From Mytilus galloprovincialis (lineage: Eukaryota; Mollusca; Bivalvia; Mytilida; Mytilidae), in contig NC_134841.1 in assembly GCF_965363235.1 (NCBI RefSeq), positions 57,991,078-58,055,077 on the forward strand: a stretch of DNA of 64,000 nt, written 5' to 3'. Under the pieces are notes generated by a model, which saw only the letters and a list, made by a program, of their open reading frames with translations, was not told the DNA's origin and did not search any database. Numbering within the stretch: the stretch's first letter is position 1; each line of letters starts with the position of its first letter. This document shows positions 6,150-50,851 of the stretch, piece after piece. The position numbers and the translations under genes were made by a program.

Positions 6150-6609
6150 ACTATACTTAAACCTATTGATCTGAACATTTACTAAATGATACTGAAGGGA
6201 CGTCCATGTGAATATTTGTTAGCGAGAAGTCTCTGCTAGGTACATAATTAATATATCACCCGAGACAGAGATGTTATAAGAAAATTATTGTTCATGTGTG
6301 ACACGTTTCCCAGTCAACTTGTTTTAAAATTACCCGATGCCAGTGTGATAAAATCCACTAATATACCAGGCATAACATATGAATATATAAACTGTAATAA
6401 TATTAAAAAATGATTGTTTTTTCAATAAACTCAAACTTGATCATTAAAAACTGTTTTTTTTTTCAAATGATCGCATTATACATTTCATTTCTATAAGTAC
6501 TAATAAAAAAGGGTCTTTAGTGATGACAATGCAATTCATTTGCAGGTATGTTTTCTGTTAGGGCCTTTGAGTATGTCTAATGTCACCTTTTCTTTTTTTT
6601 TTCCAGCAG

Positions 6610-6636
6610 GGCGCGATGCAGATTGAAGATTCGAAG
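6610..6636 (+). other. First (most 5') candidate micro-exon of the array
   Basis: Lies between a TTTTTTTTTTCCAGCAG acceptor and a GTATGT donor and is 27 nt long. It reads GAMQIEDSK, that is T to M and final Q to K relative to the array consensus. It is preceded by a diverged intron unit starting at 6546, whose upstream flank ends in TTTGCAG. No convincing 5' leader exon could be fixed upstream. Confidence 0.45.
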
Positions 6637-7533
6637 GTATGTTTTCTGTTAAGGCCTTTGTGTATGTCTAATGTCGCCTTTTCTTTTTTTCTAGCAGGGC
6701 GCGACGCAGATTGAGGATTTTCAGGTATGTTTTCTGTTAAGACCTTTGTGTATGTCTAATGATTTTTTTTTTTTTCCTTTAGGTCGTGTGGCCTTTTTTT
6801 TTGCAGGGCGCAACGCAGATTGAGGATTCCCAGGTATGTTTTCTGTTAAGACCTTTGTGTATGTCTAATTGCGCCTTTTCTTTTTTTCTAGCAGGGCACG
6901 ACGCAGATTGAGGATTCCCAGGTATGTTTTCTGTTAAGACCTTTGTGTATGTCTAATTGCGCCTTTTCTTTTTTTCTAGCAGGGCGCGACGCAGATTGAG
7001 GATTCCCAGGTATGTTTTCTGTTAAGACCTTTGTGTATGTCTAATGGTTTCTTTTTTTTTCCTTTAGGTCGTGTGGCCTTTTTTTTTTTGCAGGGCGCGA
7101 TGCAGATTGAGGATTCCCAGGTATGTTTTCTGTTAAGACCTTTGTGTATGTCTAATTGCACCTTTTCTTTTTTTCTAGCAGGGCGCGACGCAGATTGAGG
7201 ATTCCCAGGTATGTTTTCTGTTAAGACCTTTGTGTATGTCTAATTGCGCCTTTTCTTTTTTTCTAGCAGGGCGCGACGCAGATTGAGGATTCCCAGGTAT
7301 GTTTTCTGTTAAGACCTTTGTGTATGTCTAATTGCACCTTTTCTTTTTTTTTAGCAGGGCGCGACGCAGATTGAGGATTCCCAGGTATGTTTTCTGTTAA
7401 GACCTTTGTGTATGTCTAATTGCGCCTTTTCTTTTTTTCTAGCAGGGCGCGACGCAGATTGAGGATTCCCAGGTATGTTTTCTGTTAAGACCTTTGTGTA
7501 TGTCTAATTGCGCCTTTTCTTTTTTTTTAGCAG

Positions 7534-7563
7534 GGCGCGACGCAGATTGAGGATTTTTTCCAG
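7534..7563 (+). other. 30-nt variant micro-exon (in-frame insertion)
   Basis: This unit ends GATTTTTTCCAG instead of GATTCCCAG. The candidate exon is 30 nt and reads GATQIEDFFQ, keeping the frame. The same variant recurs elsewhere in the array (for example near 7,930, 8,460 and 10,205), so it spread by amplification. Confidence 0.5.
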
Positions 7564-7733
7564 GTATGTTTTCTGTTAAGACCTTTGTGTATGTCTAATT
7601 GCGCCTTTTCTTTTTTTCTAGCAGGGCGCGACGCAGATTGAGGATTCCCAGGTATGTTTTCTGTTAAGACCTTTGTGTATGTCTAATGGTTTCTTTTTTT
7701 TTCCTTTAGGTCGTGTGGCCTTTTTTTTTGCAG

Positions 7734-7760
7734 GGCGCGACGCAGATTGAGGATTCCTAG
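7734..7760 (+). other. Variant micro-exon ending in an in-frame TAG
   Basis: CCCAG at the exon end is CCTAG here, which would put a stop in the GATQIEDSQ frame. The same change sits 907 bp downstream (8,641-8,667) inside a duplicated block, so it is probably one mutation copied once. Confidence 0.55.
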
Positions 7761-10680
7761 GTATGTTTTCTGTTAAGACCTTTGTGTATGTCTAATTGCA
7801 CCTTTTCTTTTTTTCTAGCAGGGCGCGACGCAGATTGAGGATTTCCAGGTATGTTTTCTGCTAAGACCTTTGTGTATGTCTAATTGCACCTTTTCTTTTT
7901 TTTTAGCAGGGCGCGACGCAGATTGAGGATTTTTTCCAGGTATGTTTTCTGTTAAGACCTTTGTGTATGTCTAATTGCGCCTTTTCTTTTTTTCTAGCAG
8001 GGCGCGACGCAGATTGAGGATTCCCAGGTATGTTTTCTGTTAAGACCTTTGTGTATGTCTAATTGCGCCTTTTCTTTTTTTCTAGCAGGGCGCGACGCAG
8101 ATTGAGGATTCCCAGGTATGTTTTCTGTTAAGACCTTTGTGTATGTCTAATTGCACCTTTTCTTTTTTTCTAGCAGGGCGCGACGCAGATTGAGGATTCC
8201 CAGGTATGTTTTCTGTTAAGACCTTTGTGTATGTCTAATTGCACCTTTTCTTTTTTTTTAGCAGGGCGCGACGCAGATTGAGGATTCCCAGGTATGTTTT
8301 CTGTTAAGACCTTTGTGTATGTCTAATTGCGCCTTTTCTTTTTTTCTAGCAGGGCGCGACGCAGATTGAGGATTCCCAGGTATGTTTTCTGTTAAGACCT
8401 TTGTGTATGTCTAATTGCGCCTTTTCTTTTTTTTTAGCAGGGCGCGACGCAGATTGAGGATTTTTTCCAGGTATGTTTTCTGTTAAGACCTTTGTGTATG
8501 TCTAATTGCGCCTTTTCTTTTTTTCTAGCAGGGCGCGACGCAGATTGAGGATTCCCAGGTATGTTTTCTGTTAAGACCTTTGTGTATGTCTAATGGTTTC
8601 TTTTTTTTTCCTTTAGGTCGTGTGGCCTTTTTTTTTGCAGGGCGCGACGCAGATTGAGGATTCCTAGGTATGTTTTCTGTTAAGACCTTTGTGTATGTCT
8701 AATTGCACCTTTTCTTTTTTTCTAGCAGGGCGCGACGCAGATTGAGGATTTCCAGGTATGTTTTCTGCTAAGACCTTTGTGTATGTCTAATTGCACCTTT
8801 TCTTTTTTTTTAGCAGGGCGCGACGCAGATTGAGGATTTTTTCCAGGTATGTTTTCTGTTAAGACCTTTGTGTATGTCTAATTGCGCCTTTTCTTTTTTT
8901 CTAGCAGGGCGCGACGCAGATTGAGGATTCCCAGGTATGTTTTCTGTTAAGACCTTTGTGTATGTCTAATTGCGCCTTTTCTTTTTTTTTAGCAGGGCGC
9001 GACGCAGATTGAGGATTTTTTCCAGGTATGTTTTCTGTTAAGACCTTTGTGTATGTCTAATTGCGCCTTTTCTTTTTTCTAGCCGAGCGCGACGCAGATT
9101 GAGGATTCCCAGGTATGTTTTCTGTTAAGACCTTTGTGTATGTCTAATTGCGCCTTTTCTTTTTTTCTAGCAGGGCGCGACGCAGATTGAGGATTCCCAG
9201 GTATGTTTTCTGTTAAGACCTTTGTGTATGTCTAATGGTTTCTTTTTTTTTCCTTTAGGTCGTGTGGCCTTTTTTTTTTTTGCAGGGCGCGACGCAGATT
9301 GAGGATTCCCAGGTATGTTTTTAAGACCTTTGTGTATGTCTAATTGCACCTTTTCTTTTTTTCTAGCAGGGCGCGACGCAGATTGAGGATTCCCAGGTAT
9401 GTTTTCTGTTAAGACCTTTGTGTATGTCTAATTGCGCCTTTTCTTTTTTTCTAGCAGGGCGCGACGCAGATTGAGGATTCCCAGGTATGTTTTCTGTTAA
9501 GACCTTTGTGTATGTCTAATTGCGCCTTTTCTTTTTTTCTTGCAGGGCGCGACGCAGATTGAGGATTCCCAGGTATGTTTCTGTTAAGACCTTTGTGTAT
9601 GTCTAATTGCGCCTTTTCTTTTTTTCTAGCAGGGCGCGACGCAGATTGAGGATTCCCAGGTATGTTTTCTGTTAAGACCTTTGTGTATGTCTAATTGCGC
9701 CTTTTCTTTTTTTCTAGCAGGGCGCGACGCAGATTGAGGATTCCCAGGTATGTTTTCTGTTAAGACCTTTGTGTATGTCTAATGGTTTCTTTTTTTTTCC
9801 TTTAGGTCGTGTGGCCTTTTTTTTTTTTGCAGGGCGCGACGCAGATTGAGGATTCCCAGGTATGTTTTCTGTTAAGACCTTTGTGTATGTCTAATTGCAC
9901 CTTTTCTTTTTTTCTAGCAGGGCGCGACGCAGATTGAGGATTCCCAGGTATGTTTTCTGTTAAGACCTTTGTGTATGTCTAATTGCGCCTTTTCTTTTTT
10001 TCTAGCAGGGCGCGACGCAGATTGAGGATTCCCAGGTATGTTTTCTGTTAAGACCTTTGTGTATGTCTAATTGCGCCTTTTCTTTTTTTCTAGCAGGGCG
10101 CGACGCAGATTGAGGATTCCCAGGTATGTTTTCTGTTAAGACCTTTGTGTATGTCTAATTGCGCCTTTTCTTTTTTTTTAGCAGGGCGCGACGCAGATTG
10201 AGGATTTTTTCCAGGTATGTTTTCTGTTGAGACCTTTGTGTATGTCTAATTGCGCCTTTTCTTTTTTCTAGCTGGGCGCGACGCAGATTGAGGATTCCCA
10301 GGTATGTTTTCTGTTAAGACCTTTGTGTATGTCTAATTGCGCCTTTTCTTTTTTCTAGCTGGGCGCGACGCAGATTGAGGATTCCCAGGTATGTTTTCTG
10401 TTAAGACCTTTGTGTATGTCTAATGGTTTCTTTTTTTTTCCTTTAGGTTGTGTGGCCTTTTTTTTTTTTGCAGGGCGCGATGCAGATTGAGGATTCCCAG
10501 GTATGTTTTCTGTTAAGACCTTTGTGTATGTCTAATTGCACCTTTTCTTTTTTTCTAGCAGGGCGCGACGCAGATTGAGGATTCCCAGGTATGTTTTCTG
10601 TTAAGACCTTTGTGTATGTCTAATTGCGCCTTTTCTTTTTTTCTAGCAGGGCGCGACGCAGATTGAGGATTCCCAGGTAT

Positions 10681-13600
10681 GTTTTCTGTTAAGACCTTTG
10701 TGTATGTCTAATGGTTTCTTTTTTTTTCCTTTAGGTCGTGTGGCCTTTTTTTTTTTTGCAGGGCGCGACGCAGATTGAGGATTCCCAGGTATGTTTTCTG
10801 TTAAGACCTTTGTGTATGTCTAATTGCACCTTTTCTTTTTTTCTAGCAGGGCGCGACGCAGATTGAGGATTCCCAGGTATGTTTTCTGTTAAGACCTTTG
10901 TGTATGTCTAATTGCGCCTTTTCTTTTTTTCTAGCAAGGCGCGCCGCAGATTGAAGATTCCCAGGTATGTTTTCTGTTAATACCTTTGTGTATGTCTAAT
11001 TGCGCCTTTTCTTTTTTTTTAGCAGGGCGCGACGCAGATTGAGGATTCCCAGGTATGTTTTCTGTTAAGACCTTTGTGTATGTCTAATTGCGCCTTTCCT
11101 TTTTTTCTAGCAGTGCGCGACGCAGATTGAGGATTTCCAGGTATGTTTTCTGTTAAGACCTTTGTGTATGTCTAATTGCGCCTTTTCTTTTTTTCTATCA
11201 AGGCGCGCCGCAGATTGAAGATTCCCAGGTATGTTTTCTGTTAATACCTTTGTGTATGTCTAATTGCGCCTTTTCTTTTTTTCTAGCAGGGCGCGACGCA
11301 GATTGAGGATTCCCAGGTATGTTTTCTGTTAAGACCTTTGTGTATGTCTAATTGCGCCTTTCCTTTTTTTCTAGCAGTGCGCGACGCAGATTGAGGATTT
11401 CCAGGTATGTTTTCTGTTAAGACCTTTGTGTATGTCTAATGGTTTCTTTTTTTTTCCTTTAGGTCGTGTGGCCTTTTTTTTTTTGCAGGGCGCGACGCAG
11501 ATTGAGGATTCCCAGGTATGTTTTCTGTTAAGACCTTTGTGTATGTCTAATTGCGCCTTTTCTTTTTTTCTAGCAGGGCGCGACGCAGATTGAGGATTCC
11601 CAGGTATGTTTTCTGTTAAAACCTTTGTGTATGTCTAATTTCGCCTTTTCTTTTTTTCTAGCAGAGCGCGACGCAGAATCCCAGGTATGTTTTCTGTTAA
11701 GACCTTTGTGTATGTCTTATTGCGCCTTTTCTTTTTTTCTAGCAGGGCGCGACGCAGATTGAGGATTCCCAGGTATGTTTTTTGTTAAGACCTTTGTGTA
11801 TGTCTAATGGTTTCTTTTTTTTTTCCTTTAGGTCGTGTGGCCTTTTTTTTTTTTGCAGGGCGCGACGCAGATTGAGGATTCCCAGGTATGTTTTCTGTTA
11901 AGACCTTTGTGTATGTCTAATTGCGCCTTTTCTTTTTTTCTATCAGGGCGCGATGCAAATTGAGGATTCCCAGGTATGTTTTCTGTTAAGACCTTTGTGT
12001 ATGTCTAATTGCGCGTTTTCTTTTTTTCTAGCAGGGCCAACGCAGATTGAGGATTCCCAGGTATGTTTTCTGTTAAGACCTTTGTGTATGTCTAATTGCG
12101 CCTTTTCTTTTTTTCTTGCAGGGCGCGACGCAGATTGAGGATTCCCAGGTATGTTTTCTGTTAAGACCTTTGTGTATGTCTAATTGCGCCTTTTGTTTTT
12201 TTCTAGCAGGGCGCGACGCAGTTTGAGGATTCCCAGGTATGTTTTCTGTTAAGACCTTTGTGTATGTCTAATTGCGCCTTTTCTTTTTTTCTAGCAGGGC
12301 GCGACGCAGATTGAGGATTCCCAGGTATGTTTTCTGTTAAGACCTTTGTGTATGTCTAATTGCGCGTTTTTTTTTTCTAGCAGGGCGCGACGCAGATTGA
12401 GGATTCCCAGGTATGTTTTCTGTTAAGACCTTTGTGTATGTCTAATTGCGCCTTTTCTTTTTTTCTAGCAGGGCGCGACGCAGATTGAGGATTCCCAGGT
12501 ATGTTTTCTGTTAAGACCTTTGTGTATGTCTAATTGCGCCTTTTCTTTTTTTCTAGCAGGGCGCGACGCAGATTGAGGATTCCCAGGTATGTTTTCTGTT
12601 AAGACCTTTGTGTATGTCTAATTGCGCCTTTTCTTTTTTTCTAGCAGGGCGCGACGCAGATTGAGGATTCCCAGGTATGTTTTCTGTTAAGACCTTTGTG
12701 TATGTCTAATTGCGCCTTTTCTTTTTTTCTAGCAGGGCACGACGCAGATTGAGGATTCCCAGGTATGTTTTCTGTTAAGACCTTTGTGTATGTCTAATGG
12801 TTTCTTTTTTTTTCCTTTAGGTCGTGTGGCCTTTTTTTTTTGCAGGGCGCGACGAAGATTGAGGATTCCCAGGTATGTTTTCTGTTAAGACCTTTGTGTA
12901 TGTCTAATTGCACCTTTTCTTTTTTTCTAGCAGGGCGCGACGCAGATTGAGGATTCCCAGGTATGTTTTCTGTTAAGACCTTTGTGTATGTCTAATTGCA
13001 CCTTTTCTTTTTTTTTAGCAGGGCGCGACGCAGATTGAGGATTCCCAGGTATGTTTTCTGTTAAGACCTTTGTGTATGTCTAATTGCGCCTTTTCTTTTT
13101 TTCTAGCAGGGCGCGACGCAGATTGAGGATTCCCAGGTATGTTTTCTGTTAAGTCCTTTGTGTATGTCTAATTGAGCCTTTTCTTTTTTTCTAGCAGGGC
13201 GCGATGCAGATTGAGGATTCCGAGGTATGTTTTCTGTTAAGAACTTTGTGTATGTCTTATTGCGCCTTTTCTTTTTTTCTAGCAGGGCGCAATGCAGATT
13301 GAGGATTCCCAGGTATGTTTTCTGTTAAGACCTTTGTGTATGTCTAATTGCGCCTTTTCTTTTTTTCTAGCAGGGCGCGACGCAGATTGAGGATTCCCAG
13401 GTATGTTTTCTGTTAAGACCTTTGTGTATGTCTAATTGCGCCTTTTCTTTTTTTCTAGCAGGGCGCGACGCAGATTGAGGATTCCCAGGTATGTTTTCTG
13501 TTAAGACCTTTGTGTATGTCTAATTGCGCCTTTTCTTTTTTTCTAGCAGGGCGCAACGCAGATTGAGGATTCCCAGGTATGTTTTCTGTTAAGACCTTTG

Positions 13601-16600
13601 TGTATGTCTAATTGCGCCTTTTCTTTTTTTCTAGCAGGGCGCGCCGCAGATTGAAGATTCCCAGGTATGTTTTCTGTTAAGACCTTTGTGTATGTCTAAT
13701 TGCGCCTTTTCTTTTTTTCTAGCAGGGCGCGACGCAGATTGAGGATTCCCAGGTATGTTTTCTGTTAAGACCTTTGTGTATGTCTAATTGCGCCTTTCCT
13801 TTTTTTTCTAGCAGGGCGCGCCGCAGATTGAAGATTCCCAGGTATGTTTTTTGTTAAGACCTTTGTGTATGTCTAATTGCGCCTTTTCTTTTTTTCTAGC
13901 AGGGCGCGACGCAGATTGAGGATTCCCAGGTATGTTTTCTGTTAAGACCTTTGTGTATGTCTAATTGCGCCTTTCCTTTTTTTTCTAGCAGTGCGCGACG
14001 CAGATTGAGGATTCCCAGGTATGTTTTCTGTTAAGACCTTTGTGTATGTCTAATGGTTTCTTTTTTTTTTCCTTTAGGTCGTGTGGCCTTTTTTTTTTTG
14101 TAGGGCGCGACGCAGATTAAGGATTCCCAGGTATGTTTTCTGTTAAGACCTTTGTGTATGTCTAATTGAGCCTTTTCTTTTTTTCTAGCAGGGCGCGATG
14201 CAGATTGAGGATTCCGAGGTATGTTTTCTGTTAAGACCTTTGTGTATGTCTAATTGCGCCTTTTCTTTTTTTCTAGCAGGGCGCGACGCAGATTGAGGAT
14301 TCCCAGGTATGTTTTCTGTTAAGACCTTTGTGTATGTCTAATTGCGCCTTTTCTTTTTTTCTAGCAGGGCACGACGCAGATTGAGGATTCCCAGGTATGT
14401 TTTCTGTTAAGACCTTTGTGTATGTCTAATGGTTTCTTTTTTTTTCCTTTAGGTCGTGTGGCCTTTTTTTTTTGCAGGGCGCGACGAAGATTGAGGATTG
14501 CCAGGTATGTTTTCTGTTAAGACCTTTGTGTATGTCTAATTGCACCTTTTCTTTTTTTCTAGCAGGGCGCGACGCAGATTGAGGATTCCCAGGTATGTTT
14601 TCTGTTAAGACCTTTGTGTATGTCTAATTGCACCTTTTCTTTTTTTTTAGCAGGGCGCGACGCAGATTGAGGATTCCCAGGTATGTTTTCTGTTAAGACC
14701 TTTGTGTATGTCTAATTGCGCCTTTTCTTTTTTTCTAGCAGGGCGCGACGCAGATTGAGGATTCCCAGGTATGTTTTCTGTTAAGTCCTTTGTGTATGTC
14801 TAATTGAGCCTTTTCTTTTTTTCTAGCAGGGCGCGATGCAGATTGAGGATTCCGAGGTATGTTTTCTGTTAAGAACTTTGTGTATGTCTTATTGCGCCTT
14901 TTCTTTTTTTCTAGCAGGGCGCAATGCAGATTGAGGATTCCCAGGTATGTTTTCTGTTAAGACCTTTGTGTATGTCTAATTGCGCCTTTTCTTTTTTTCT
15001 AGCAGGGCGCGACGCAGATTGAGGATTCCCAGGTATGTTTTCTGTTAAGACCTTTGTGTATGTCTAATTGCGCCTTTTCTTTTTTTCTAGCAGGGCGCGA
15101 CGCAGATTGAGGATTCCCAGGTATGTTTTCTGTTAAGACCTTTGTGTATGTCTAATTGCGCCTTTTCTTTTTTTCTAGCAGGGCGCGACGCAGATTGAGG
15201 ATTCCCAGGTATGTTTTCTGTTAAGACCTTTGTGTATGTCTAATTGCGCCTTTTCTTTTTTTCTAGCAGGGCGCGACGCAGATTGAGGATTCCCAGGTAT
15301 GTTTTCTGTTAAGACCTTTGTGTATGTCTAATGGTTTCTTTTTTTTTCCTTTAGGTCGTGTGGCCTTTTTTTTTTTTGCAGGGCGCGACGCAGATTGAGG
15401 ATTCCCAGGTATGTTTTCTGTTAAGACCTTTGTGTATGTCTAATTGCACCTTTTCTTTTTTTCTAGCAGGGCGCGACGCAGATTGAGGATTCCCAGGTAT
15501 GTTTTCTGTTAAGACCTTTGTGTATGTCTAATTGCGCCTTTTCTTTTTTTCTAGCAAGGCGCGCCGCAGATTGAAGATTCCCAGGTATGTTTTCTGTTAA
15601 TACCTTTGTGTATGTCTAATTGCGCCTTTTCTTTTTTTTTAGCAGGGCGCGACGCAGATTGAGGATTCCCAGGTATGTTTTCTGTTAAGACCTTTGTGTA
15701 TGTCTAATTGCGCCTTTCCTTTTTTTCTAGCAGTGCGCGACGCAGATTGAGGATTTCCAGGTATGTTTTCTGTTAAGACCTTTGTGTATGTCTAATTGCG
15801 CCTTTTCTTTTTTTCTATCAAGGCGCGCCGCAGATTGAAGATTCCCAGGTATGTTTTCTGTTAATACCTTTGTGTATGTCTAATTGCGCCTTTTCTTTTT
15901 TTCTAGCAGGGCGCGACGCAGATTGAGGATTCCCAGGTATGTTTTCTGTTAAGACCTTTGTGTATGTCTAATTGTGCCTTTCCTTTTTTTCTAGCAGTGC
16001 GCGACGCAGATTGAGGATTTCCAGGTATGTTTTCTGTTAAGACCTTTGTGTATGTCTAATGGTTTCTTTTTTTTTCCTTTAGGTCGTGTGGCCTTTTTTT
16101 TTTTGCAGGGCGCGACGCAGATTGAGGATTCCCAGGTATGTTTTCTGTTAAGACCTTTGTGTATGTCTAATTGCGCCTTTTCTTTTTTTCTAGCAGGGCG
16201 CGACGCAGATTGAGGATTCCCAGGTATGTTTTCTGTTAAAACCTTTGTGTATGTCTAATTTCGCCTTTTCTTTTTTTCTAGCAGAGCGCGACGCAGAATC
16301 CCAGGTATGTTTTCTGTTAAGACCTTTGTGTATGTCTTATTGCGCCTTTTCTTTTTTTCTAGCAGGGCGCGACGCAGATTGAGGATTCCCAGGTATGTTT
16401 TTTGTTAAGACCTTTGTGTATGTCTAATGGTTTCTTTTTTTTTTCCTTTAGGTCGTGTGGCCTTTTTTTTTTTTGCAGGGCGCGACGCAGATTGAGGATT
16501 CCCAGGTATGTTTTCTGTTAAGACCTTTGTGTATGTCTAATTGCGCCTTTTCTTTTTTTCTATCAGGGCGCGACGCAAATTGAGGATTCCCAGGTATGTT

Positions 16601-19490
16601 TTCTGTTAAGACCTTTGTGTATGTCTAATTGCGCGTTTTCTTTTTTTCTAGCAGGGCCAACGCAGATTGAGGATTCCCAGGTATGTTTTCTGTTAAGACC
16701 TTTGTGTATGTCTAATTGCGCCTTTTCTTTTTTTCTTGCAGGGCGCGACGCAGATTGAGGATTCCCAGGTATGTTTTCTGTTAAGACCTTTGTGTATGTC
16801 TAATTGCGCGTTTTTTTTTTCTAGCAGGGCGCGACGCAGATTGAGGATTCCCAGGTATGTTTTCTGTTAAGACCTTTGTGTATGTCTAATTGCGCCTTTT
16901 CTTTTTTTCTAGCAGGGCGCGACGCAGATTGAGGATTCCCAGGTATGTTTTCTGTTAAGACCTTTGTGTATGTCTAATTGCGCCTTTTCTTTTTTTCTAG
17001 CAGGGCGCGACGCAGATTGAGGATTCCCAGGTATGTTTTCTGTTAAGACCTTTGTGTATGTCTAATTGCGCCTTTTCTTTTTTTCTAGCAGGGCGCGACG
17101 CAGATTGAGGATTCCCAGGTATGTTTTCTGTTAAGACCTTTGTGTATGTCTAATTGCGCCTTTTCTTTTTTTCTAGCAGGGCACGACGCAGATTGAGGAT
17201 TCCCAGGTATGTTTTCTGTTAAGACCTTTGTGTATGTCTAATGGTTTCTTTTTTTTTCCTTTAGGTCGTGTGGCCTTTTTTTTTTGCAGGGCGCGACGAA
17301 GATTGAGGATTCCCAGGTATGTTTTCTGTTAAGACCTTTGTGTATGTCTAATTGCACCTTTTCTTTTTTTCTAGCAGGGCGCGACGCAGATTGAGGATTC
17401 CCAGGTATGTTTTCTGTTAAGACCTTTGTGTATGTCTAATTGCACCTTTTCTTTTTTTTTAGCAGGGCGCGACGCAGATTGAGGATTCCCAGGTATGTTT
17501 TCTGTTAAGACCTTTGTGTATGTCTAATTGCGCCTTTTCTTTTTTTCTAGCAGGGCGCGACGCAGATTGAGGATTCCCAGGTATGTTTTCTGTTAAGTCC
17601 TTTGTGTATGTCTAATTGAGCCTTTTCTTTTTTTCTAGCAGGGCGCGATGCAGATTGAGGATTCCGAGGTATGTTTTCTGTTAAGAACTTTGTGTATGTC
17701 TTATTGCGCCTTTTCTTTTTTTCTAGCAGGGCGCAATGCAGATTGAGGATTCCCAGGTATGTTTTCTGTTAAGACCTTTGTGTATGTCTAATTGCGCCTT
17801 TTCTTTTTTTCTAGCAGGGCGCGACGCAGATTGAGGATTCCCAGGTATGTTTTCTGTTAAGACCTTTGTGTATGTCTAATTGCGCCTTTTCTTTTTTTCT
17901 AGCAGGGCGCGACGCAGATTGAGGATTCCCAGGTATGTTTTCTGTTAAGACCTTTGTGTATGTCTAATTGCGCCTTTTCTTTTTTTCTAGCAGGGCGCAA
18001 CGCAGATTGAGGATTCCCAGGTATGTTTTCTGTTAAGACCTTTGTGTATGTCTAATTGCGCCTTTTCTTTTTTTCTAGCAGGGCGCGCCGCAGATTGAAG
18101 ATTCCCAGGTATGTTTTCTGTTAAGACCTTTGTGTATGTCTAATTGCGCCTTTTCTTTTTTTCTAGCAGGGCGCGACGCAGATTGAGGATTCCCAGGTAT
18201 GTTTTCTGTTAAGACCTTTGTGTATGTCTAATTGCGCCTTTCCTTTTTTTTCTAGCAGGGCGCGCCGCAGATTGAAGATTCCCAGGTATGTTTTTTGTTA
18301 AGACCTTTGTGTATGTCTAATTGCGCCTTTTCTTTTTTTCTAGCAGGGCGCGACGCAGATTGAGGATTCCCAGGTATGTTTTCTGTTAAGACCTTTGTGT
18401 ATGTCTAATTGCGCCTTTCCTTTTTTTTCTAGCAGTGCGCGACGCAGATTGAGGATTCCCAGGTATGTTTTCTGTTAAGACCTTTGTGTATGTCTAATGG
18501 TTTCTTTTTTTTTTCCTTTAGGTCGTGTGGCCTTTTTTTTTTTGTAGGGCGCGACGCAGATTAAGGATTCCCAGGTATGTTTTCTGTTAAGACCTTTGTG
18601 TATGTCTAATTGAGCCTTTTCTTTTTTTCTAGCAGGGCGCGATGCAGATTGAGGATTCCGAGGTATGTTTTCTGTTAAGACCTTTGTGTATGTCTAATTG
18701 CGCCTTTTCTTTTTTTCTAGCAGGGCGCGACGCAGATTGAGGATTCCCAGGTATGTTTTCTGTTAAGACCTTTGTGTATGTCTAATTGCGCCTTTTCTTT
18801 TTTTCTAGCAGGGCACGACGCAGATTGAGGATTCCCAGGTATGTTTTCTGTTAAGACCTTTGTGTATGTCTAATGGTTTCTTTTTTTTTCCTTTAGGTCG
18901 TGTGGCCTTTTTTTTTTGCAGGGCGCGACGAAGATTGAGGATTCCCAGGTATGTTTTCTGTTAAGACCTTTGTGTATGTCTAATTGCACCTTTTCTTTTT
19001 TTCTAGCAGGGCGCGACGCAGATTGAGGATTCCCAGGTATGTTTTCTGTTAAGACCTTTGTGTATGTCTAATTGCACCTTTTCTTTTTTTTTAGCAGGGC
19101 GCGACGCAGATTGAGGATTCCCAGGTATGTTTTCTGTTAAGACCTTTGTGTATGTCTAATTGCGCCTTTTCTTTTTTTCTAGCAGGGCGCGACGCAGATT
19201 GAGGATTCCCAGGTATGTTTTCTGTTAAGTCCTTTGTGTATGTCTAATTGAGCCTTTTCTTTTTTTCTAGCAGGGCGCGATGCAGATTGAGGATTCCGAG
19301 GTATGTTTTCTGTTAAGAACTTTGTGTATGTCTTATTGCGCCTTTTCTTTTTTTCTAGCAGGGCGCAATGCAGATTGAGGATTCCCAGGTATGTTTTCTG
19401 TTAAGACCTTTGTGTATGTCTAATTGCGCCTTTTCTTTTTTTCTAGCAGGGCGCAACGCAGATTGAGGATTCCCAGGTATGTTTTCTGTT
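10681..19490. repeat. ~4.6-kb tandem segmental duplication inside the array
   Basis: Rare unit variants repeat in the same order at a constant distance. The AAGGCGCGCCGCAG unit, the short GCGACGCAGAATCCCAG unit (11,665 and 16,285) and the GCAGGGCCAACG unit (12,031 and 16,651) are all 4,620 bp apart. After a ~176-bp (two-unit) deletion in the second copy the offset becomes 4,444 bp (for example GACGAAG at 12,851 and 17,295; the GCGATG unit at 13,201 and 17,645). The first block runs to about 15,300 and the second starts at once. Confidence 0.8.
11665..11684 (+). other. Frame-breaking 20-nt variant micro-exon
   Basis: An internal 7-nt deletion leaves 20 nt between acceptor and donor (AGCGCGACGCAGAATCCCAG), which would shift the frame if this exon were included. 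A copy lies at 16,285-16,304 in the duplicated block. A 26-nt frame-breaking variant is at 12,035-12,060 and again 4,620 bp downstream. Confidence 0.5.
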
Positions 19491-20400
19491 AAGACCTTTG
19501 TGTATGTCTAATTGCGCCTTTTCTTTTTTTCTAGCAGGGCGCGACGCAGATTGAGGATTCCCAGGTATGTTTTCTGTTAAGACCTTTGTGTATGTCTAAT
19601 TGCGCCTTTTCTTTTTTTCTAGCAGGGCGCAACGCAGATTGAGGATTCCCAGGTATGTTTTCTGTTAAGACCTTTGTGTATGTCTAATTGCGCCTTTTCT
19701 TTTTTTCTAGCAGGGCGCGCCGCAGATTGAAGATTCCCAGGTATGTTTTCTGTTAAGACCTTTGTGTATGTCTAATTGCGCCTTTTCTTTTTTTCTAGCA
19801 GGGCGCGACGCAGATTGAGGATTCCCAGGTATGTTTTCTGTTAAGACCTTTGTGTATGTCTAATTGCGCCTTTCCTTTTTTTTCTAGCAGGGCGCGCCGC
19901 AGATTGAAGATTCCCAGGTATGTTTTTTGTTAAGACCTTTGTGTATGTCTAATTGCGCCTTTTCTTTTTTTCTAGCAGGGCGCGACGCAGATTGAGGATT
20001 CCCAGGTATGTTTTCTGTTAAGACCTTTGTGTATGTCTAATTGCGCCTTTCCTTTTTTTTCTAGCAGTGCGCGACGCAGATTGAGGATTCCCAGGTATGT
20101 TTTCTGTTAAGACCTTTGTGTATGTCTAATGGTTTCTTTTTTTTTTCCTTTAGGTCGTGTGGCCTTTTTTTTTTTGCAGGGCGCGACGCAGATTAAGGAT
20201 TCCCAGGTATGTTTTCTGTTAAGACCTTTGTGTATGTCTAATTGAGCCTTTTCTTTTTTTCTAGCAGGGCGCGATGCAGATTGAGGATTCCGAGGTATGT
20301 TTTCTGTTAAGACCTTTGTGTATGTCTAATTGCGCCTTTTCTTTTTTTCTAGCAGGGCGCGACGCAGATTGAGGATTCCCAGGTATGTTTTCTGTTAAAA
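12720..20400. repeat. Nested ~1.63-kb repeat inside the 4.6-kb blocks
   Basis: GACGAAG at 12,851 recurs at 14,484, and the GCGATG...CCGAGG unit at 13,201 recurs at 14,833. In the second large block the same markers lie at 17,295 and 18,928, and at 17,645 and 19,277. All spacings are 1,632-1,633 bp, so a ~1.63-kb duplication predates the 4.6-kb one. Confidence 0.75.
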
Positions 20401-21496
20401 CCTTTGTGTATGTCTAATTGCGCCTTTTCTTTTTTTCTAGCAGGGCGCGACGCAGATTGAGGATTCCCAGGTATGTTTTCTGTTAAGACCTTTGTGTATG
20501 TCTAATTGCGCCTTTTCTTTTTTTCTAGCAGGGCGCGACGCAGATTGAGGATTCCCAGGTATGTTTTCTGTTAAGACCTTTGTGTATGTCTAATTGCGCC
20601 TTTTCTTTTTTTCTAGCAGGGCGCGACGCAGATTGAGGATTCCCAGATATGTTTTCTGTTAAGACCTTTGTGTATGTCTAATTTCGCCTTTTCTTTTTTT
20701 CTAGCAGAGCGCGACGCAGATTGAGGATTCCCAGGTATGTTTTCTGTTAAGACCTTTGTGTATGTCTAATTGCGCCTTTTCTTTTTTTCTAGCAGGGCGC
20801 GACGCAGATTGAGGATTCCCAGGTATGTTTTCTGTTAAGACCTTTGTGTATGTCTAATTTCGCCTTTTCTTTTTTTCTAGCAGAGCGCGACGCAGATTGA
20901 GGATTCCCAGGTATGTTTTCTGTTAAGACCTTTGTGTATGTCTAATTGCGCCTTTTCTTTTTTTCTAGCAGGGCGCGACGCAGATTGAGGATTCCCAGTT
21001 ATGTTTTCTGTTAAGACCTTTGTGTATGTCTAATGGTTTCTTTTTTTTTTTTGCAGGGCGTGACGCAGATTGAGGATTCCCAGGTATGTTTTCTGTTAAG
21101 ACCTTTGTGTATGTCTAATTGCGCCTTTTCTTTTTTTCTAGCAGGGCGCGACGCAGATTGAGGATTCCCAGGTATGTTTTCTGTTAAGACCTTTGTGTAT
21201 GTCTAATTGCGCCTTTTCTTTTTTTCTTGCAGGGCGCGACGCAGATTGAGGATTCCCAGGTATGTTTTCTGTTAAGACCTTTGTGTATGTCTAATTGCGC
21301 CTTTTGTTTGTTTCTAGCAGGGCGCGACGCAGTTTGAGGATTCCCAGGTATGTTTTCTGTTAAGACCTTTGTGTATGTCTAATTGCGCCTTTTCTTTTTT
21401 TCTAGCAGGGCGCGACGCAGATTGAGGATTCCCAGGTATGTTTTCTGTTAAGACCTTTGTGTATGTCTAATGTTGTCTTTTCTTTTATTTTGGCAG

Positions 21497-21523
21497 GGCG
21501 CGACGCAGATTGGAGATTTGCAG
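21497..21523 (+). other. Edge micro-exon variant GATQIGDLQ
   Basis: Twenty-seven nt between TTTGGCAG and GTATGT, with the last third replaced (GGAGATTTGCAG). The ending TTTGCAG is shared with the next exon and with the left flank of the array. It may preserve the ancestral unit better than the homogenised interior. Confidence 0.5.
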
Positions 21524-21580
21524 GTATGTTTTCTGTTAAGGCCTTTGTGTATGTCAAATGGTTCCTTTTTTTTCCTTTAG

Positions 21581-21607
21581 GTCGTGTGGCCTATGGGACA
21601 TTTGCAG
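21581..21607 (+). other. Distinct 27-nt micro-exon VVWPMGHLQ
   Basis: Between CCTTTAG and GTATGT lies an intact 27-nt segment that starts GTCGTGTGGCC and reads VVWPMGHLQ. About twenty interior units keep only its first 11 nt, followed by a T run of variable length, GCAG and then the common exon. This copy therefore shows what the longer variant unit derives from: a second micro-exon type whose 3' part became a new polypyrimidine tract. Confidence 0.55.
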
Positions 21608-21665
21608 GTATGTTTTCTGTTAAGGCCTTTGTGTATGTTTAATGTCATCTTTTTTTTTCTGGCAG

Positions 21666-21692
21666 GGCGCGTCGCAGATTGAAGATATTTAA
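21666..21692 (+). other. Last micro-exon, runs into an in-frame stop
   Basis: After a TTTTTTTTCTGGCAG acceptor the final unit reads GASQIEDI and then TAA in the same frame as the rest of the array. It has no GTATGT donor, so it would serve as a terminal exon. The sequence also overlaps the cut end of a minus-strand LINE, so the stop could be a by-product of the junction. Confidence 0.5.
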
Positions 21693-23059: not shown

Positions 23060-24080
23060 ATTTTATAACAGGGATAGATATGGTATCATATTAAAGCAGT
23101 CTTTTAAAGTAGCCCTGATTGTGTATTTTCCTTTGTATCATTCTGTATCATTTTTTATACCTCTTTTTTCAATGGAATATCAATTATCATAGTTGGAAAC
23201 AGTGGATGCTACTCACTCTTACATATGGCAATGGTTTTGAGAAAAATAGAATGTATTTCTGTTCCACATTATAGGAAAAAAAATTATCGGAGGAAGCTTA
23301 GGTTCCGAAATTTTTTTTATGAACATAATAAAAATCCCAGGTGAAAGATAAGACTTCAATATTTGTAATTCGTTGTGTCCATGCATGTCAACTTTTTGCA
23401 CCGGAACCTTGCCCTAATCGAAAATAAAGGTGGAATTTCCCCTTCTCGGAAGCTCATTTTTTATACTTCTCTTTTCAATACCGGTGTCCTTGTGTTTGAA
23501 AATGAGCAGCTACATTTGTAGAGTTTTCTGAATTTTTGGTATGTTTTGGGATAAAAGTCAAACTTTATGCACACCAAACCTTATCGGAAAAGAGCAGGTG
23601 GATTTTTTTTTAATTGTCATTATGTTTTGATAGACAATTAAGGGAAAATAACTGTGTTCTCCGGCCTTTTTGGTCCCCTGATTTGCACCATTTGCTTAAA
23701 ATTTGAAATGCAATGATATTTTATTGTTAATTTATAGTAAATGATTGAAAAATAATTTGTGATGCCTATTTTACCATATTTTGGGGTTGTAAAGTTTATT
23801 TGTTGAAACTTTTGCGGCAAATCTCAAATCAGGGGCTCATAGTTTTTCTGTTTTGGGCAAATTCCTACTCATTCTGATAAGAAATATTTCATTTAAAGGA
23901 CTTATTCCAAAATATTGAGCAAAATTACAAGAAAAAACTGCCCCTAAGTAATATTAAATTAAATGTTTACTTTATTTAATTGGTGTAAACACCAAATGGC
24001 AATTTCACATATCTTTTTGAAGGATTTGGGTGGTCCTTAAAAGGACCTTTGGTTGCATGAGTTGCTGGGTTACTGTCTCA
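23060..24080. other. AT-rich spacer
   Basis: Only short unrelated open frames on both strands. No gene or RNA gene recognised. Confidence 0.5.
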
Positions 24081-24081
24081 T

Positions 24082-24688
24082 CTATGGTGCTGGTGGTAGT
24101 TTTCTCTTGCAACTAGTACTATGGCTAAGAAAGGCAGGTACTTGGTCCAACTGTCCTTTTCTGTAAACATCTTGCTCTTTACTTTTTAGCTTGGCCTCTC
24201 TATGTTCCACTATTTTTTCCCCACTCCGTGTAAGACATCTATGTTGAACTTCAGTTTTGTTTCCATAGTCTTGCTTGTAGGTAAACTGTTTGTCCATGCT
24301 TTACTGAGGTTCCTGGCATGTTGTTGTTTCTGTGAATTCCAGATGCCAATCTGGCCTCCATGCCTCTTGAGAAGATTACATACATTCTTAGGTAAATTCA
24401 CACTTAAAGACCTGTGCACAGCTTCATTCTTGTTCATGTTGTTGATGGTGTTGTAAAGCTTCATACTAGGCTACTAATTGCATCTTCGCTAAGCTTCATT
24501 CTCAAGATCTCTTGTAGTAACAACTTGTCTTTTTCATCCATTTGTAGGATAGTAATGTTATGACAGCCAAGGATGCAATTCTGAAAACTAGGTTGAGTTT
24601 TTAATTTTTCATTGATTTTTCTCAAATATTCTGGGTAGGAATTTATGTGATTTGAAATGAATTTAGAAAAGTAACCTTGATAACACAA
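24082..24688 (-). pseudogene. Frameshifted coding fragment, transposon-derived protein-like
   Basis: Three minus-strand frames follow one another. The first (24,688-24,461) has ILQMDEKDKLLLQEILRMKL. The second (24,464-24,210) has NMNKNEAVHRSLSVNLPKNV. The third (24,297-24,082) has EKIVEHREAKLKSKEQDVYR. The N-x-NK-EA-HR-LS-LPKN pattern resembles a multi-copy mollusc/cnidarian protein that I associate with DNA transposons, and the three parts fall in the expected order. The second to third switch happens at an A6 run. I read this as one coding region with two frameshifts. The family assignment is from memory and uncertain. Confidence 0.4.
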
Positions 24689-24699
24689 TGATGTGTTCT

Positions 24700-25300
24700 T
24701 CTTTTGGAAAATTTTATTATTGATTTAATTTCATGAATGTTTCTACTTTAACAAACACTTTAGTTTTTCCAAAAACTTGCACTAATAAAAAAGTTATGAG
24801 CATTTAAATATTGAAGGTATTTTGAGGGAAATGAAAATTCCATTCCAGAAAAATGATAAAATTTTGGTGTGAAGGTTGTGCTAATTGTCTGCATTAGTCA
24901 AGGGAATTTTTTGAAAATTTTTACAGAACTGGAAAGAAAACCTGTTGCGACTAATATTTATAACCTTTCCATCATTATTTAAAGCAAATTTGTAATGTAA
25001 TAAATACCTTGATGGATTACATATAAATATCCTGATGGAGAGCTTAGTCGATTCTGAAACTGAGGGTGCAACAGGTAACGGAAAAACCCCAAAAGTTGAC
25101 CAACTTGGTCGAATGAAAATGTCTTTTCTTAATAGTGTTTTTAATTATTATTGCAACATTATTAAGAACGGCTTGCATGTATTAGATTGACTTGTTATAA
25201 TATCACTTTTAACTTTTATAGGCAGGGTTTGTAAAATTGAGGCTTTTCTTTTCAAGAATTTCCTGTTTGATCAAATATTGCTATTTTTAAAAAAAAAAAC
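24700..25300. other. AT-rich spacer
   Basis: No supported feature. Confidence 0.45.
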
Positions 25301-26944: not shown

Positions 26945-28292
26945 ACAACCAATCTATAGAATCGAGGCCAATGTCCATCTTTTTGAATTACTTCAAAATT
27001 ATCTTAGGCAGCAACCATTTGATTTTCTGGGGGGGGGGGGCTATGTTTTTTTTTCTGTACAAACTTTTTTTTTCGCCTGCGGCGAAAAACAATCTATTTT
27101 TTTCGCGAGAAGTCGAAAACAATTTTTTTCTTTCAATTTTAGCATTACATATAGTGGCAGCTGGGGGTGAAACAAACAAATTTTTTTTATCAGAATCAAA
27201 AACAAATTATTTTTTTCTCCAAAAACTGGAAACAAACTTTTTTTTCCAAAAAAAACCATAGCCCCCCCCCCCCCAGAAAATCAAATGGTTGCTGCCTTAC
27301 AGATAGTAGGCAACAAATCAAACTTCAGGGAGTACTCAGCAGTTGGGCTGACATCCAGAAAGGGTTACCCCAAGGCTCAATCCTGGGGTCCCTATTATTT
27401 AATTTTTTTATAAATGACATATTCTATTTTATTGAACATGGTACCCTGTATAATTATGCCGATGATACTCTGTCATATGCAGACAACAATTTTGAAAATT
27501 TATTATGTACACTTAAAAGAGAAAGTGCTGTTTTAATTGACTGGTTTGGATTTAATTGTATGCAGGCAAATCCTGACAAATTCCAAGCCATTGCAGTTGG
27601 AAATAAAACATTTGCAAAAAAGCCTGTTTTTAATATACAGTCAGCAAAAATATCCTGTGATGAGATTGTCAAACTTTTAAGTATTGATATTGACTATCAA
27701 CTTTAAAATTTTAATCACCACATTAAAAATATTTGTCGTAAAGCATCCCAACAACTGAATGTTTTAAAGCGCATTGGCTGCTACCTTACTAAATTGAATA
27801 AATTGACCATTTTCCACACATTTATTTTATCTAATTTTAATTTTTGTCCTTTGGCATGGCTTTTTTACACCACCAAATTGGAAAAAAATCAGGAAAGGGC
27901 TTTAAGATTTATATATGAAGACTATGTTAGTTCATATGATGAACTACTTGTACGAGCAAAGGTTCCATCACTGAAAATAAGACGTATGCGTAACATGGCT
28001 TTTGAGTGTTTTAAAATCTTATATAAATTGTCACCACCATGCTTACATGATTTAGTTGTATTGAAAGATTGTAAATATACTTTTAGATATTCTAATATTG
28101 TAGATATACCTAGGGTCGGAACATCAACCTATGGTAAGAACTCTTTTAAATACACAGCTGCTGTTTTATGGAATGATCTACCTGATGATTTTAGAAAAAT
28201 TGCTAATTTTGGATCATTTTAGTCAGTTCAAAAATATTTTAAAGTTATGGAATGGAAATGACTGTAAGTGCACAGTTTGTGCAGACTTTTAG
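26945..28292 (+). pseudogene. 5'-truncated LINE reverse transcriptase, interrupted by a MITE
   Basis: The frame before the MITE reads ...HLFELLQNYL and resumes after it as TDSRQQIKLQG. Reverse-transcriptase motifs follow: KGLPQGSILGSLLFN..IND, then LYNYADD (the catalytic YADD box, near 27,455), then KLLSIDIDYQL. An in-frame TAA breaks it at about 27,704. The C-terminal part continues (ALRFIYEDYVSSYDELL, KYTAAVLWNDLPDDFR) to 28,219. A frameshift there leads to an ending with NDCKCTVCADF and a stop at 28,292. It is CR1/Jockey-like from motif order and inactive. Confidence 0.85.
27007..27296. mobile_element. 290-bp MITE with long TIRs and TTA target duplication
   Basis: The left end GGCAGCAACCATTTGATTTT...CTATG is the reverse complement of the right end CATAG...AAAATCAAATGGTTGCTGCC. 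It is flanked on both sides by TTA (27,004-27,006 and 27,297-27,299). A 3-bp TTA/TAA duplication is characteristic of PIF/Harbinger elements. Removing element plus one TTA rejoins the LINE frame, which proves insertion into the LINE. The interior has GC-poor direct and inverted blocks, and the open frames through it are not genes. Confidence 0.85.
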
Positions 28293-36300: not shown

Positions 36301-39300
36301 TCAACCTAGATCACCAATCATTATCATGAAATTGCCATTTAGAGATATGTCTGGGTCAATTTGGAAAATCGCAGTCACATGGAAAGACTGGGCTGAAATT
36401 ATGTAAAAATATATCTTTTATGCTGTCTTCTTATATCAAAGTACTGTCATACTCATAATCAAAGCATTAGTTTGTGATTATTCTATGAACCAAGGTTACA
36501 TGTTGTAATTCAAGGTTACAGTAATTTTAATTATAAATGTCAAAATCACATCATCTTTATGTTGGGTTGAATAAAATGTATTGCAAGTCTTTCTTCATCT
36601 ATAAACAAATTTTGTCTATCTTGCATAAGATATATTAATCACACATTTTCCCACTCTGTAAGTCTATTGAAGAATGTGTTGACTTGTTTTACCTATAGTA
36701 ATAAATCAAACTGACCAGGTTTAGGTCGGCCAATTAATCTTGGCCAATTTACCCAATTATCATCAACACAATTTTCAATACAAACTATTAATTAAATCTA
36801 TAATGATTTGAACTAGCAAATTATTTATAGAGATCTTTATCAGAATCAAGAATTTTTACAGATTTGATATTTCTAATCTCAAGTTTTAGTTGCAAAATAT
36901 TGAGTTATACTCATGACTGGCATAATTTGTTTGTAAAAAGATTGTGTTTTAATTTCTATATTTATTTTGTACTTATTGAAATAAATATCTAAATCAACAA
37001 ATTAGTAAAACAGAGTTTGATTATAAAATCTTTAACAAGATCCCTGACATAGCTAAAATATTGTATTAAAACAGCTTCTCTAACTATTTTTCTTTGTACT
37101 TTTAGGCAGAAAACCCAAGATAGTTGTAAAACCAAAATCAAAAATAGAAGTAAATACTGGTTTAATTTTCCTGTTAACCTGTCAAGCTACTGGCTCACCT
37201 GCTCCTAGAGTTCAGTGGTATAAGGATGGTACTCAGATTCCGGTCACAAACAACAGAATACAAACATTACCTTCAGGTTAGTAAAACTGACCTGCAGCAG
37301 GAAAAAAGGGGAAGATCCAAGTGGTCCGAAGACCATAAACATTTATTAGTCACAATAAGTGGAAAATGTATGTTCTCTTAAGATTATGAGCAATGACTAT
37401 CAACAAATACAGCTGTGCAGTGAAAACTTCTATACATGTATTTTAGTTTTGAATGTAAACAAAAAAATCTCTGAAACAAGAAAAGTTTTCCAGTTCTACA
37501 TAAAATGTTCAATAATTTTTCAACTTTATTCAAAGGACTCATTTTCAACTAAAATCAAAGGACCTGTATTCAATAAATTTACATCAATACTTGAAATTAT
37601 GGAGAGAAAAAACGAATTCAAATTGAATTTATGTGCATAATTCTGAAAAATTTATTTTTACAGATATATTTTATCGTTTATTTTATAATACACTTACTTG
37701 TAGGTGACTTATTAGTTACACTAGCCAAGAAATCGGATACAGGATTATATAGTTGTGAAGTCATCAATACAGAAGGAATGGATATGGCTAGCTCCCAAGT
37801 CATAGTTAGAGGTAAGGCATTATTTCTACTGGTTTACTGTTGTAGGGGAGACAACTGTTTATTTACAAACATTCTTCAGATTTTACCAAAATAAAGCAAT
37901 GACAAAAATAGGCATACATTATTATATTGTAGACATTTGTTAATTTGAATACAACAAGCATATTTTAAAATTCTATAGAAGTTTAATATGAAAGTTTTAA
38001 ATAAAATGACTGGTATTAAATAGTATAATTAATATATATTGATATTTAGATATAAACAAGTCTAAATTGAAGACAGCGTTCAAACCTATGATTGCTTTGG
38101 GAAAAAAACGCAATTTTTATACATGTGTATGTAACAAATTGTGTTATAGAGGAGTCTAAACACAGCACAACTAACATTTTCCAAAAGACCAAAAGGGTGA
38201 AAAATATAAAATATTATGATATATAGATATATAGATATATAGCCTCCTCCTGATTTTATAGTAATGAGCAAGCTTGTGTAGAATTTCAGTGCTCTTTTAT
38301 TGTTTTATAGAATATAGTTCAGGATGTAAAGATGGTACAACAGAAGGACTAGATTTACACAGAGACGTACATGCTTGTTCTGGGAAGTGGGAAGGACATG
38401 TTAGGAAGGGGAAATCACTCTGTAAGAAAGGTTGGAAAGTATGTAATCCCACAGACAGAGAGGTTTTACATGGGTTAACATGGCTAGATATGTTAGATTT
38501 ACAGGGATGTTATGCTTATAATGCTGCAATGAGAAAAGGACAATGTAAAAAGTAAGTTGCTTCTGTTCATAATCATATATGAAAGAATTAGTGTAAACAA
38601 GCATAAAGTATTCAGTGTATAGATAAAACCAGTGGCGGATCCAGGATTTTTCATAAGTGGGGGCCCACTGACTTACCTAAGAGGGGGCCCGCTCCAGTCA
38701 CGCTTCAGTGATTCCCTATATAAGCAACCAAAATTTTTCCTAAAAAGGGGGGGTGCCCCCCCCCCCCCCTAAATCCGCCTCTGAAAAGTATTTTTTTAAT
38801 TTTTGTTTTTAATAGAAGAGTGATATGTATATCAGGTTCCTTTGCTTTAAATACTATTAAGTCAGTTTTGGCTCTAGAAGAGTTCATCCTCTTTTTATCT
38901 TCTTTTTTTTTTTGCTCTTTAAAATTTGGAACCATTACAGAAGGTTAAGATAAAATTTATAAAAAGAACTTTAGAATTCCATAAATTTGTATCCTTGTTT
39001 TTGTAAGTTTCACACAATTATTTATTTATTTTTTAATTTTCAGATGTAGAGAAAGAAATATGGCAGGTTTTGGTAGGAATTGTGGTAAATTAAGATACCA
39101 ACGGAAAAGACAATCATGTTTAGCTACAGGAAGAGTTGATGTTTTTAAAAAGTCAGAAGCTTCATCAGGTTGTTTCTATAAAGAAGGTGTTACTTCTGGA
39201 GTTCTGTGCTGTAAAAGGAAATCTAGAAAATCTAGTAAGTAAATTCTGATTAGAATAAACATGTTTTTTGCATTGTCAGTCATAATTTCTTGTTAGTTAA

Positions 39301-50601: not shown

Positions 50602-50851
50602 TCATACAAAGATCCTTATTATGCTAATAACCGTAATCAGATACACAGGAATTAGACTTGTCTTTGGTGCACTTCCTACTGCAACACATGTAAACTTCTG
50701 TAACTTTTCTGCTTGTACTATGAAATCACGGCCGAGGTAGGATGAGAAAGTGTTACGACTATCAGGTACCCTAATAAGTCGAACAGTATCATCTGTAAAC
50801 ATGAGATCGTTGTACCAGGTACCAGAGTCAAACATGTGGAAATCTCCCTCA
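50602..50851 (-). CDS. Transferrin last exon with hydrophobic (GPI-like) tail
   Basis: Acceptor AATTCTCAG. Reads GDFHMFDSGTWYNDLMFTDD, TVRLIRVPDSRNTFSSYLGR, FTCVAVGSAPKTS and a hydrophobic end finishing IIRIFV and TGA. Small residues (GSA) before the hydrophobic run could be the GPI attachment site. Confidence 0.92.

Follow-up and report, generated by a model that had tools for sequence, protein, structure and literature searches.

A 15-kb array in the mussel Mytilus galloprovincialis, in which a short intron alternates with a 27-nt segment, raises the question of whether splice signals repeated on this scale belong to a gene or to a satellite that only looks like one. An earlier note had read the array as introns and micro-exons that might be spliced into a long repetitive protein or a non-coding RNA, with an amplified ancestral exon and intron as the alternative. 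The array was analysed in its 64,000-nucleotide stretch of DNA (hereafter the window), and its relatives were sought in the whole assembly.

Anatomy and edges of the array

We found that the array consists of head-to-tail copies of an intron and a micro-exon spanning about 15 kb, with rows of 88-bp period from Tandem Repeats Finder jointly covering positions 6538-21686. The unit start, GTATGTTT, had 166 matches from 6546 to 21608, or 167 when a changed first base was tolerated, which bears out the roughly 165 units over 15 kb claimed earlier. The array and its edges comprise the following features:
6492..6497, forward strand: TATAAG, a TATA-like box in the left flank with a possible promoter role
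6521..6545, forward strand: leader segment TGATGACAATGCAATTCATTTGCAG before the first donor, a putative exon
6546..21681, forward strand: the array of 167 tandem intron and micro-exon units (tandem-repeat and motif scan)
6546..6636, forward strand: first unit, of edge type, with an exon ending ...GAAGATTCGAAG
12325..14394, forward strand: 23-unit higher-order block, copy 1
16769..18838, forward strand: 23-unit higher-order block, copy 2, with the same unit sequence as copy 1
21581..21607, forward strand: the sole complete B segment of the window, GTCGTGTGGCCTATGGGACATTTGCAG
21666..21681, forward strand: array-side part of the last A segment
21682..22363, reverse strand: LINE ORF remnant, cut at ...ENEKIKYL where the array begins (similarity to P0001/P0002)

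Each monomer pairs a micro-exon with a minimal spliceosomal intron of about 55-64 nt, arranged as CAG/GTATGT...CTAAT...polypyrimidine...AG and bracketing a segment of mostly 27 nt, and the second A of CTAAT, as read from the sequence, is positioned 26 nt before the intron end. The earlier description of an 88-bp unit with a 5' splice site, CTAAT about 26 nt from the 3' end, a polypyrimidine tract and a 27-nt segment was accurate. The commonest unit reads GTATGTTTTCTGTTAAGACCTTTGTGTATGTCTAATTGCGCC-polypyrimidine-TAGCAG followed by GGCGCGACGCAGATTGAGGATTCCCAG, and unit starts were spaced by exactly 88 bp in 120 of 166 intervals. Among the 166 units parsed (all but the B unit at 21524), the intron was 61 nt long in 128 and the middle segment measured 27 nt in 156, 30 nt in 6, 26 nt in 2 and 20 nt in 2; the donor was not GT in 2 units and the acceptor not AG in 7. 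Twenty long units (109-113 bp) contain GTCGTGTGGCCT and a run of T, the remnant of a second segment, B, and truncated B remnants are accordingly found at 20 window sites besides the complete one. Homogenisation was strong, two sequences accounting for 57 of the 165 window intervals, and the identical unit sequence of the two 23-unit blocks suggests that the array grew by large exchanges. In its head-to-tail, near-identical monomers and higher-order blocks, the array resembles a satellite. RNA folding gave z-scores of -0.72 and 1.11 for two units and -1.31 for the intron alone, indicating no stable fold, and Rfam at gathering scores revealed no known RNA family in the array and no snoRNA anywhere in the window. 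Exact copies of the intron start were absent from viral and prokaryote contigs, and the literature searched for unit or peptide strings returned no match.

At the left edge, TATAAG stands about 30 bases before the leader in the window array (W) and in the related arrays A2, A3 and A5, which are located below; A4 reads TAAAAG, and array-less copies of the left flank on contigs C10 and C2 read TAGAAG at this position, so that a promoter role for TATAAG can be suggested only tentatively. Over roughly the nearest kilobase the flanks of five arrays were 96-100% identical in most 100-column windows, indicating that the five are recent segmental duplicates, and the identity of the leader in W and A2-A5 is confined to such duplicates. 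The edge-type first unit also occurs in A2, A4 and A5; A3 differs. The 261 bases of the left edge have 11 copies in the genome: 5 with the array junction, all on C4, the contig of the window, and 6 without it, of which C4 has three, C10 two and C2 one, and in which other sequence follows. The array-less element (L038, L039, L041) reaches a common end, ...CCGTACGCCATA, on C10 and C2, and this end is like that of a transposon. The frames left of the array are presumably transposon-like as well; Pfam gave no match for three left-side frames inside the window, and no host gene was evident upstream.

At the right edge, the remnant probably derives from a LINE, as its similarity to the proteins P0001 and P0002 suggests; it had no Pfam match. 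P0001 is 92% identical to it up to KIKYL and then runs past the junction with residues absent from the window, and on this ground insertion of an intron-like element into the LINE with target duplication was rejected. The B segment and the leader share a terminal CATTTGCAG, and GCAG/CATTTGCAG is common to the edges, but an empty site was unsupported. Two arrays end inside an intron, A6 at its left end and A3 at its right.

Elsewhere, the window contains:
1489-2108: a repeat of 147 bp (TGACCTTGACCTCATTTTCATGG...), related copies of which lie on the opposite strand at 45.4-47.4 kb of the window
24007-24052, reverse strand: a Histone3 stem-loop (40.2 bits against a gathering score of 34), the sole Rfam match in the window
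24085-25144, reverse strand: four frames adjoining the stem-loop, three of them run against Pfam with one sub-cut-off match (DUF7014)
27155-27703, forward strand: a LINE reverse transcriptase fragment (RVT_1, E 1.2e-10)
37595-40709, forward strand: gene fragments encoding EGF domains and, at a score under the curated cut-off, an Ig-like stretch
50605-61963, reverse strand: transferrin gene pieces; all 5 frames tested matched PF00405, with one match under the curated cut-off
54477-55106: a second tandem array of 7 copies with a 91-bp period

Related arrays along the contig

The genome searched comprised 1.385 Gb in 331 contigs, with the window located on C4 (104.9 Mb). The 24-base intron start, with two A/G positions, had 2,546 matches, and a control read backwards had none. 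Family members occupy about 14 places, all on C4 among the unit matches listed:
36.53 Mb
53.28-53.31 Mb (A2)
54.02 Mb (A6)
54.51 Mb
54.54 Mb
56.67-56.71 Mb
57.88 Mb
58.00 Mb (W)
58.17-58.21 Mb (A3)
59.39 Mb
59.93-59.95 Mb (A4)
62.38 Mb
79.62-79.63 Mb
97.21-97.24 Mb (A5)

W, A2 and A3, with 167, 318 and 486 unit starts, respectively, were read whole, and A4-A6 and the loci at 36.5, 57.9, 59.4, 62.4 and 79.6 Mb in part; the sequence read comprises a minority of the 2,546 matches, and 54.5 and 56.7 Mb fall outside it. Eleven of the 14 places fall at 53-62.4 Mb, near the middle of C4, and a pericentromeric site is possible. A search for solitary copies, with an exact pattern designed to pass over most units of the arrays, had 18 matches, all on C4 and none a single copy; the two new places that it revealed were a short run of units and an array. 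The earlier note had proposed that a satellite dispersed over the genome, in random phase to its flanks, would, together with a lack of spliced reads, count against splicing. Other loci do exist and A6 and A3 are cut mid-intron, but no units dispersed over the genome were seen among the matches listed.

At least three subfamilies were distinguished, which share the intron start and have A- and B-like segments, and the recurrence of these segments suggests an old intron-B-intron-A cassette. In the part read of the 79.63-Mb array, the intron start is the same, the segments measure 27 nt (1), 19 nt (7) and 11 nt (9), and all 17 introns keep their splice sites. The parts read of the 59.39- and 62.38-Mb arrays have a different intron interior and segments chiefly of 22 and 23 nt, besides single ones of 12 and 17 nt, and 15 of 16 donors are kept. 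In type III units, the AG of the A acceptor, read by eye, is kept in 15 of 16. Between subfamilies, the segments that separate introns are less well preserved than the intron start, which partly reflects the search, since the loci were found through the intron start. Two further observations concern single loci. Directly upstream of the tandem array at 79.63 Mb (L046) lies a head-to-head inverted pair of the intron element; and directly after GATGACAATGCAA, L036 has a stretch that we take to resemble a hammerhead ribozyme core (CTGATGAGTC...GAAAC), with a similar one in L037.

Variation at the splice signals

Splice signals were present in most units read, GT and AG both being found in 953 of 968. 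When approximate splice matrices were applied, in a comparison with shuffled and reversed sequence of the kind proposed in the earlier note, the unit scored 25.4, with its donor at base 1, TAG as the best acceptor and an intron of 58. Its reverse complement scored 3.9, and 1 of 2000 dinucleotide shuffles reached 25.4.

Among units of the main subfamily, type I, we compared variation in 12 splice-critical columns (GTATGT, the branch U and A, the acceptor AG and the exon-final AG) with that in the rest of the unit. These are textbook positions, although they were chosen after the per-column table had been inspected and the set is therefore not blind. The tests used short units alone and excluded 8 CpG columns. 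Counted by unit (803 of 968), non-consensus bases had a mean frequency of 0.0021 in the 12 columns and 0.0205 in the remaining non-CpG columns (p 6e-5 by permutation), and every other circular shift gave a higher value. With one copy per haplotype (190 haplotypes; 841 of 1009 units, from six arrays), the frequencies were 0.0083 and 0.0369 (p 0.0021), again the lowest of the 88 circular shifts. The splice-critical columns of this non-blind set therefore vary 10-fold less by unit and 4-fold less by haplotype. Array by array, p (shift rank) was 0.031 (3) in W, 0.005 (1) in A2, 0.003 (2) in A3 and 0.062 (5) in A5. A first count of single-step changes found 6 in the 12 columns against 64 in 68 (p 0.08; 136 of 169 haplotypes), and a second count 8 in 12 against 60 in 47 (p 0.048). 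In type III, a diverged subfamily, the 4 columns of the acceptor AG and exon-end AG had 3 changes, against 17 in 16 non-CpG columns among the 100 listed of 104 matches (p 0.51), with no excess of conservation. Furthermore, the whole intron start was quiet, beyond what splice rules need, and the parsing of units, being anchored on the intron start, could hide damaged donors, although no interval above 114 bp remained in W, A2 or A3.

These results were weighed against a neutral satellite with fossil splice sites, in which amplification acted on part of an old gene or transposon that contained an intron, and the copies, neither transcribed nor spliced, retain their signals only through their youth and homogenisation. 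We rate this account as a serious contender that falls somewhat short of an even chance. It accommodates the strong homogenisation and the repeated 23-unit blocks, the arrays cut mid-intron, the ordinary variation of type III splice positions, the weak event-level tests, and a quietness that spans the intron start and not the splice positions alone. It is less easily reconciled with splice columns that were the quietest of all 88 shifts when haplotypes were counted once, albeit in a set that was not blind, or with splice sites that outlast changes in exon length and sequence, as in all 17 introns read at 79.63 Mb and in 15 of the 16 donors from the 59.39- and 62.38-Mb arrays. The amplified ancestral exon and intron offered as an alternative in the earlier note fits at least as well as the spliced non-coding RNA also considered there, and is refined here by listed copies on C4 only and by the quieter splice positions of the main subfamily.

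Coding potential and the preferred reading

A coding gene would use full or alternative splicing to produce a long protein of 9-residue repeats. The open reading GATQIEDSQ given earlier for the 27-nt segment is correct for one frame, an arginine-rich frame (ARRRLRIPR), read from the leader ATG, is open as well, and the third frame of the consensus unit contains a TGA stop. In a sample of 1009 type I units (W, A2 and A3 whole; A4, A5 and A6 partial), the exon measured 27 nt in 978, 26 in 22, 30 in 6, 20 in 2 and 25 in 1. From the first ATG, joined exons stay open for 520 aa in W, 975 in A2 and 306 in A3, and at 79.63 Mb one frame runs open for 86 aa through the 17 exons read. However, frame breaks occur in the joined exons at 4 of 166 units in W (units 56, 60, 107 and 111), 1 of 317 in A2 and 18 of 485 in A3; the longest open runs of the joined window exons are 507, 479 and 520 aa by frame, of about 1,500; and relatives have segments of 11, 12, 17, 19, 22 and 23 nt. 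The frame-keeping of a micro-exon gene was thus not seen, given the breaks and the exons of 11, 17, 19, 22 and 23 nt.

Distinct exon states in the GATQIEDSQ frame comprised 33 nonsynonymous, 10 synonymous and 3 stop changes (expected 29.0, 15.3 and 1.7), and those in the arginine-rich frame 29, 16 and 1 (expected 29.9, 12.7 and 3.4), where the expectation assumes transition and CpG bias and the comparison is one of plain counts. Instead of the synonymous excess of a repetitive-protein gene, synonymous changes were fewer than expected in the first frame (10 vs 15.3) and slightly more in the second (16 vs 12.7). Both open frames show exon changes that appear neutral, without clear purifying selection. 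The proposed search for GATQIEDSQ repeats, like that for the arginine-rich repeats, covered 5.8 billion proteins, in which animals may be under-represented, and yielded nothing with an E value of 1 or below; one of the searches scored only the best 8000 candidates. By the tests made, the family is non-coding, coding constraint not having been detected, and a coding gene is very unlikely. Of the earlier interpretation, the tandem anatomy of introns and micro-exons stood, and the protein of 9-residue repeats gave way to frame breaks, neutral substitutions and off-size exons in relatives. In exon-repeat coding genes such as those for titin, nebulin and collagen, many similar small exons are in frame and the frame is kept; the array has similar small repeated exons, but its frame is not kept.

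Still less probable is an introner-like mobile element that transposed repeatedly into AG/GT sites before tandem expansion, in keeping with an intron start that outlasts the inter-intron segments (partly a search bias) and with the CATTTGCAG ending of both B segment and leader, but at odds with the lack of solitary copies (18 of 18 matches of the array-avoiding pattern on C4) and with the failed target-duplication model, the LINE relative continuing past the right junction.

The explanation that we tentatively prefer, from sequence evidence, is a satellite-like non-coding family in which an intron cassette was amplified and which is perhaps still transcribed and spliced, its listed copies lying on C4 only. 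The splicing-competent and fossil readings are equally likely. In the splicing-competent reading, an ancestral intron-B-intron-A cassette would have been amplified by unequal exchange, the B segment partly deleted, and whole arrays copied along the chromosome. Less surely, some arrays may be transcribed (four of the five left edges have a TATA-like box ahead of the leader), and removal of every intron might leave a putative long non-coding RNA of micro-exons. Such removal would explain the quiet donor, branch and acceptor positions. Against the splicing step stand the two arrays that end inside an intron, A4 without TATAAG, and a leader identical only among duplicates, together with the non-blind column set, event p values of 0.05-0.08, the A5 p of 0.062 and the null type III result. 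It is, in our judgement, unlikely that some 2,500 minimal introns of a single chromosome are transcribed from repeat-borne promoters and serially removed to yield non-coding RNAs of hundreds of micro-exons each.

As far as the cited descriptions go, the family resembles several known systems in part. Bivalve satellite-like tandem repeats, some carried by Helentrons, are likewise short homogenised monomers beside mobile elements at several loci, whereas the mussel monomer is a full intron plus micro-exon with both splice sites, and its listed copies lie on one contig (PMC7492417). SNORD116 host transcripts have tandem non-coding exons, and share with the array a tandem exon-intron unit and a potential spliced non-coding RNA; in contrast, the mussel unit is about 88 bp, the window has no Rfam snoRNA, and transcription is putative here (PMC4742849). 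Schistosoma micro-exon genes contain comparable runs of very short exons, but encode secreted proteins and have long introns, whereas the array has introns of about 60 nt, no detected coding constraint and hundreds of near-identical units (PMC10526429). Introners are also near-identical introns in many copies, but inserted in many genes genome-wide, unlike the mussel family, seen as tandem arrays on C4 only among the matches listed (PMC9860276).

Either way, a family with about 14 places and its listed copies on one contig is a marker of within-chromosome duplication. If the array is not spliced, it illustrates how far a satellite can retain splice anatomy in the absence of splicing, which is a caution for gene prediction. 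If it is spliced, it would provide a natural test bed for the spliceosome on introns of about 60 nt, hundreds of them side by side, with 11-27-nt exons, and it would exemplify a satellite with a splicing unit as its monomer. If serial removal were true, the splice signals themselves would be the selected trait of a satellite, and the RNAs would, to our knowledge, be among the most intron-dense transcripts known.
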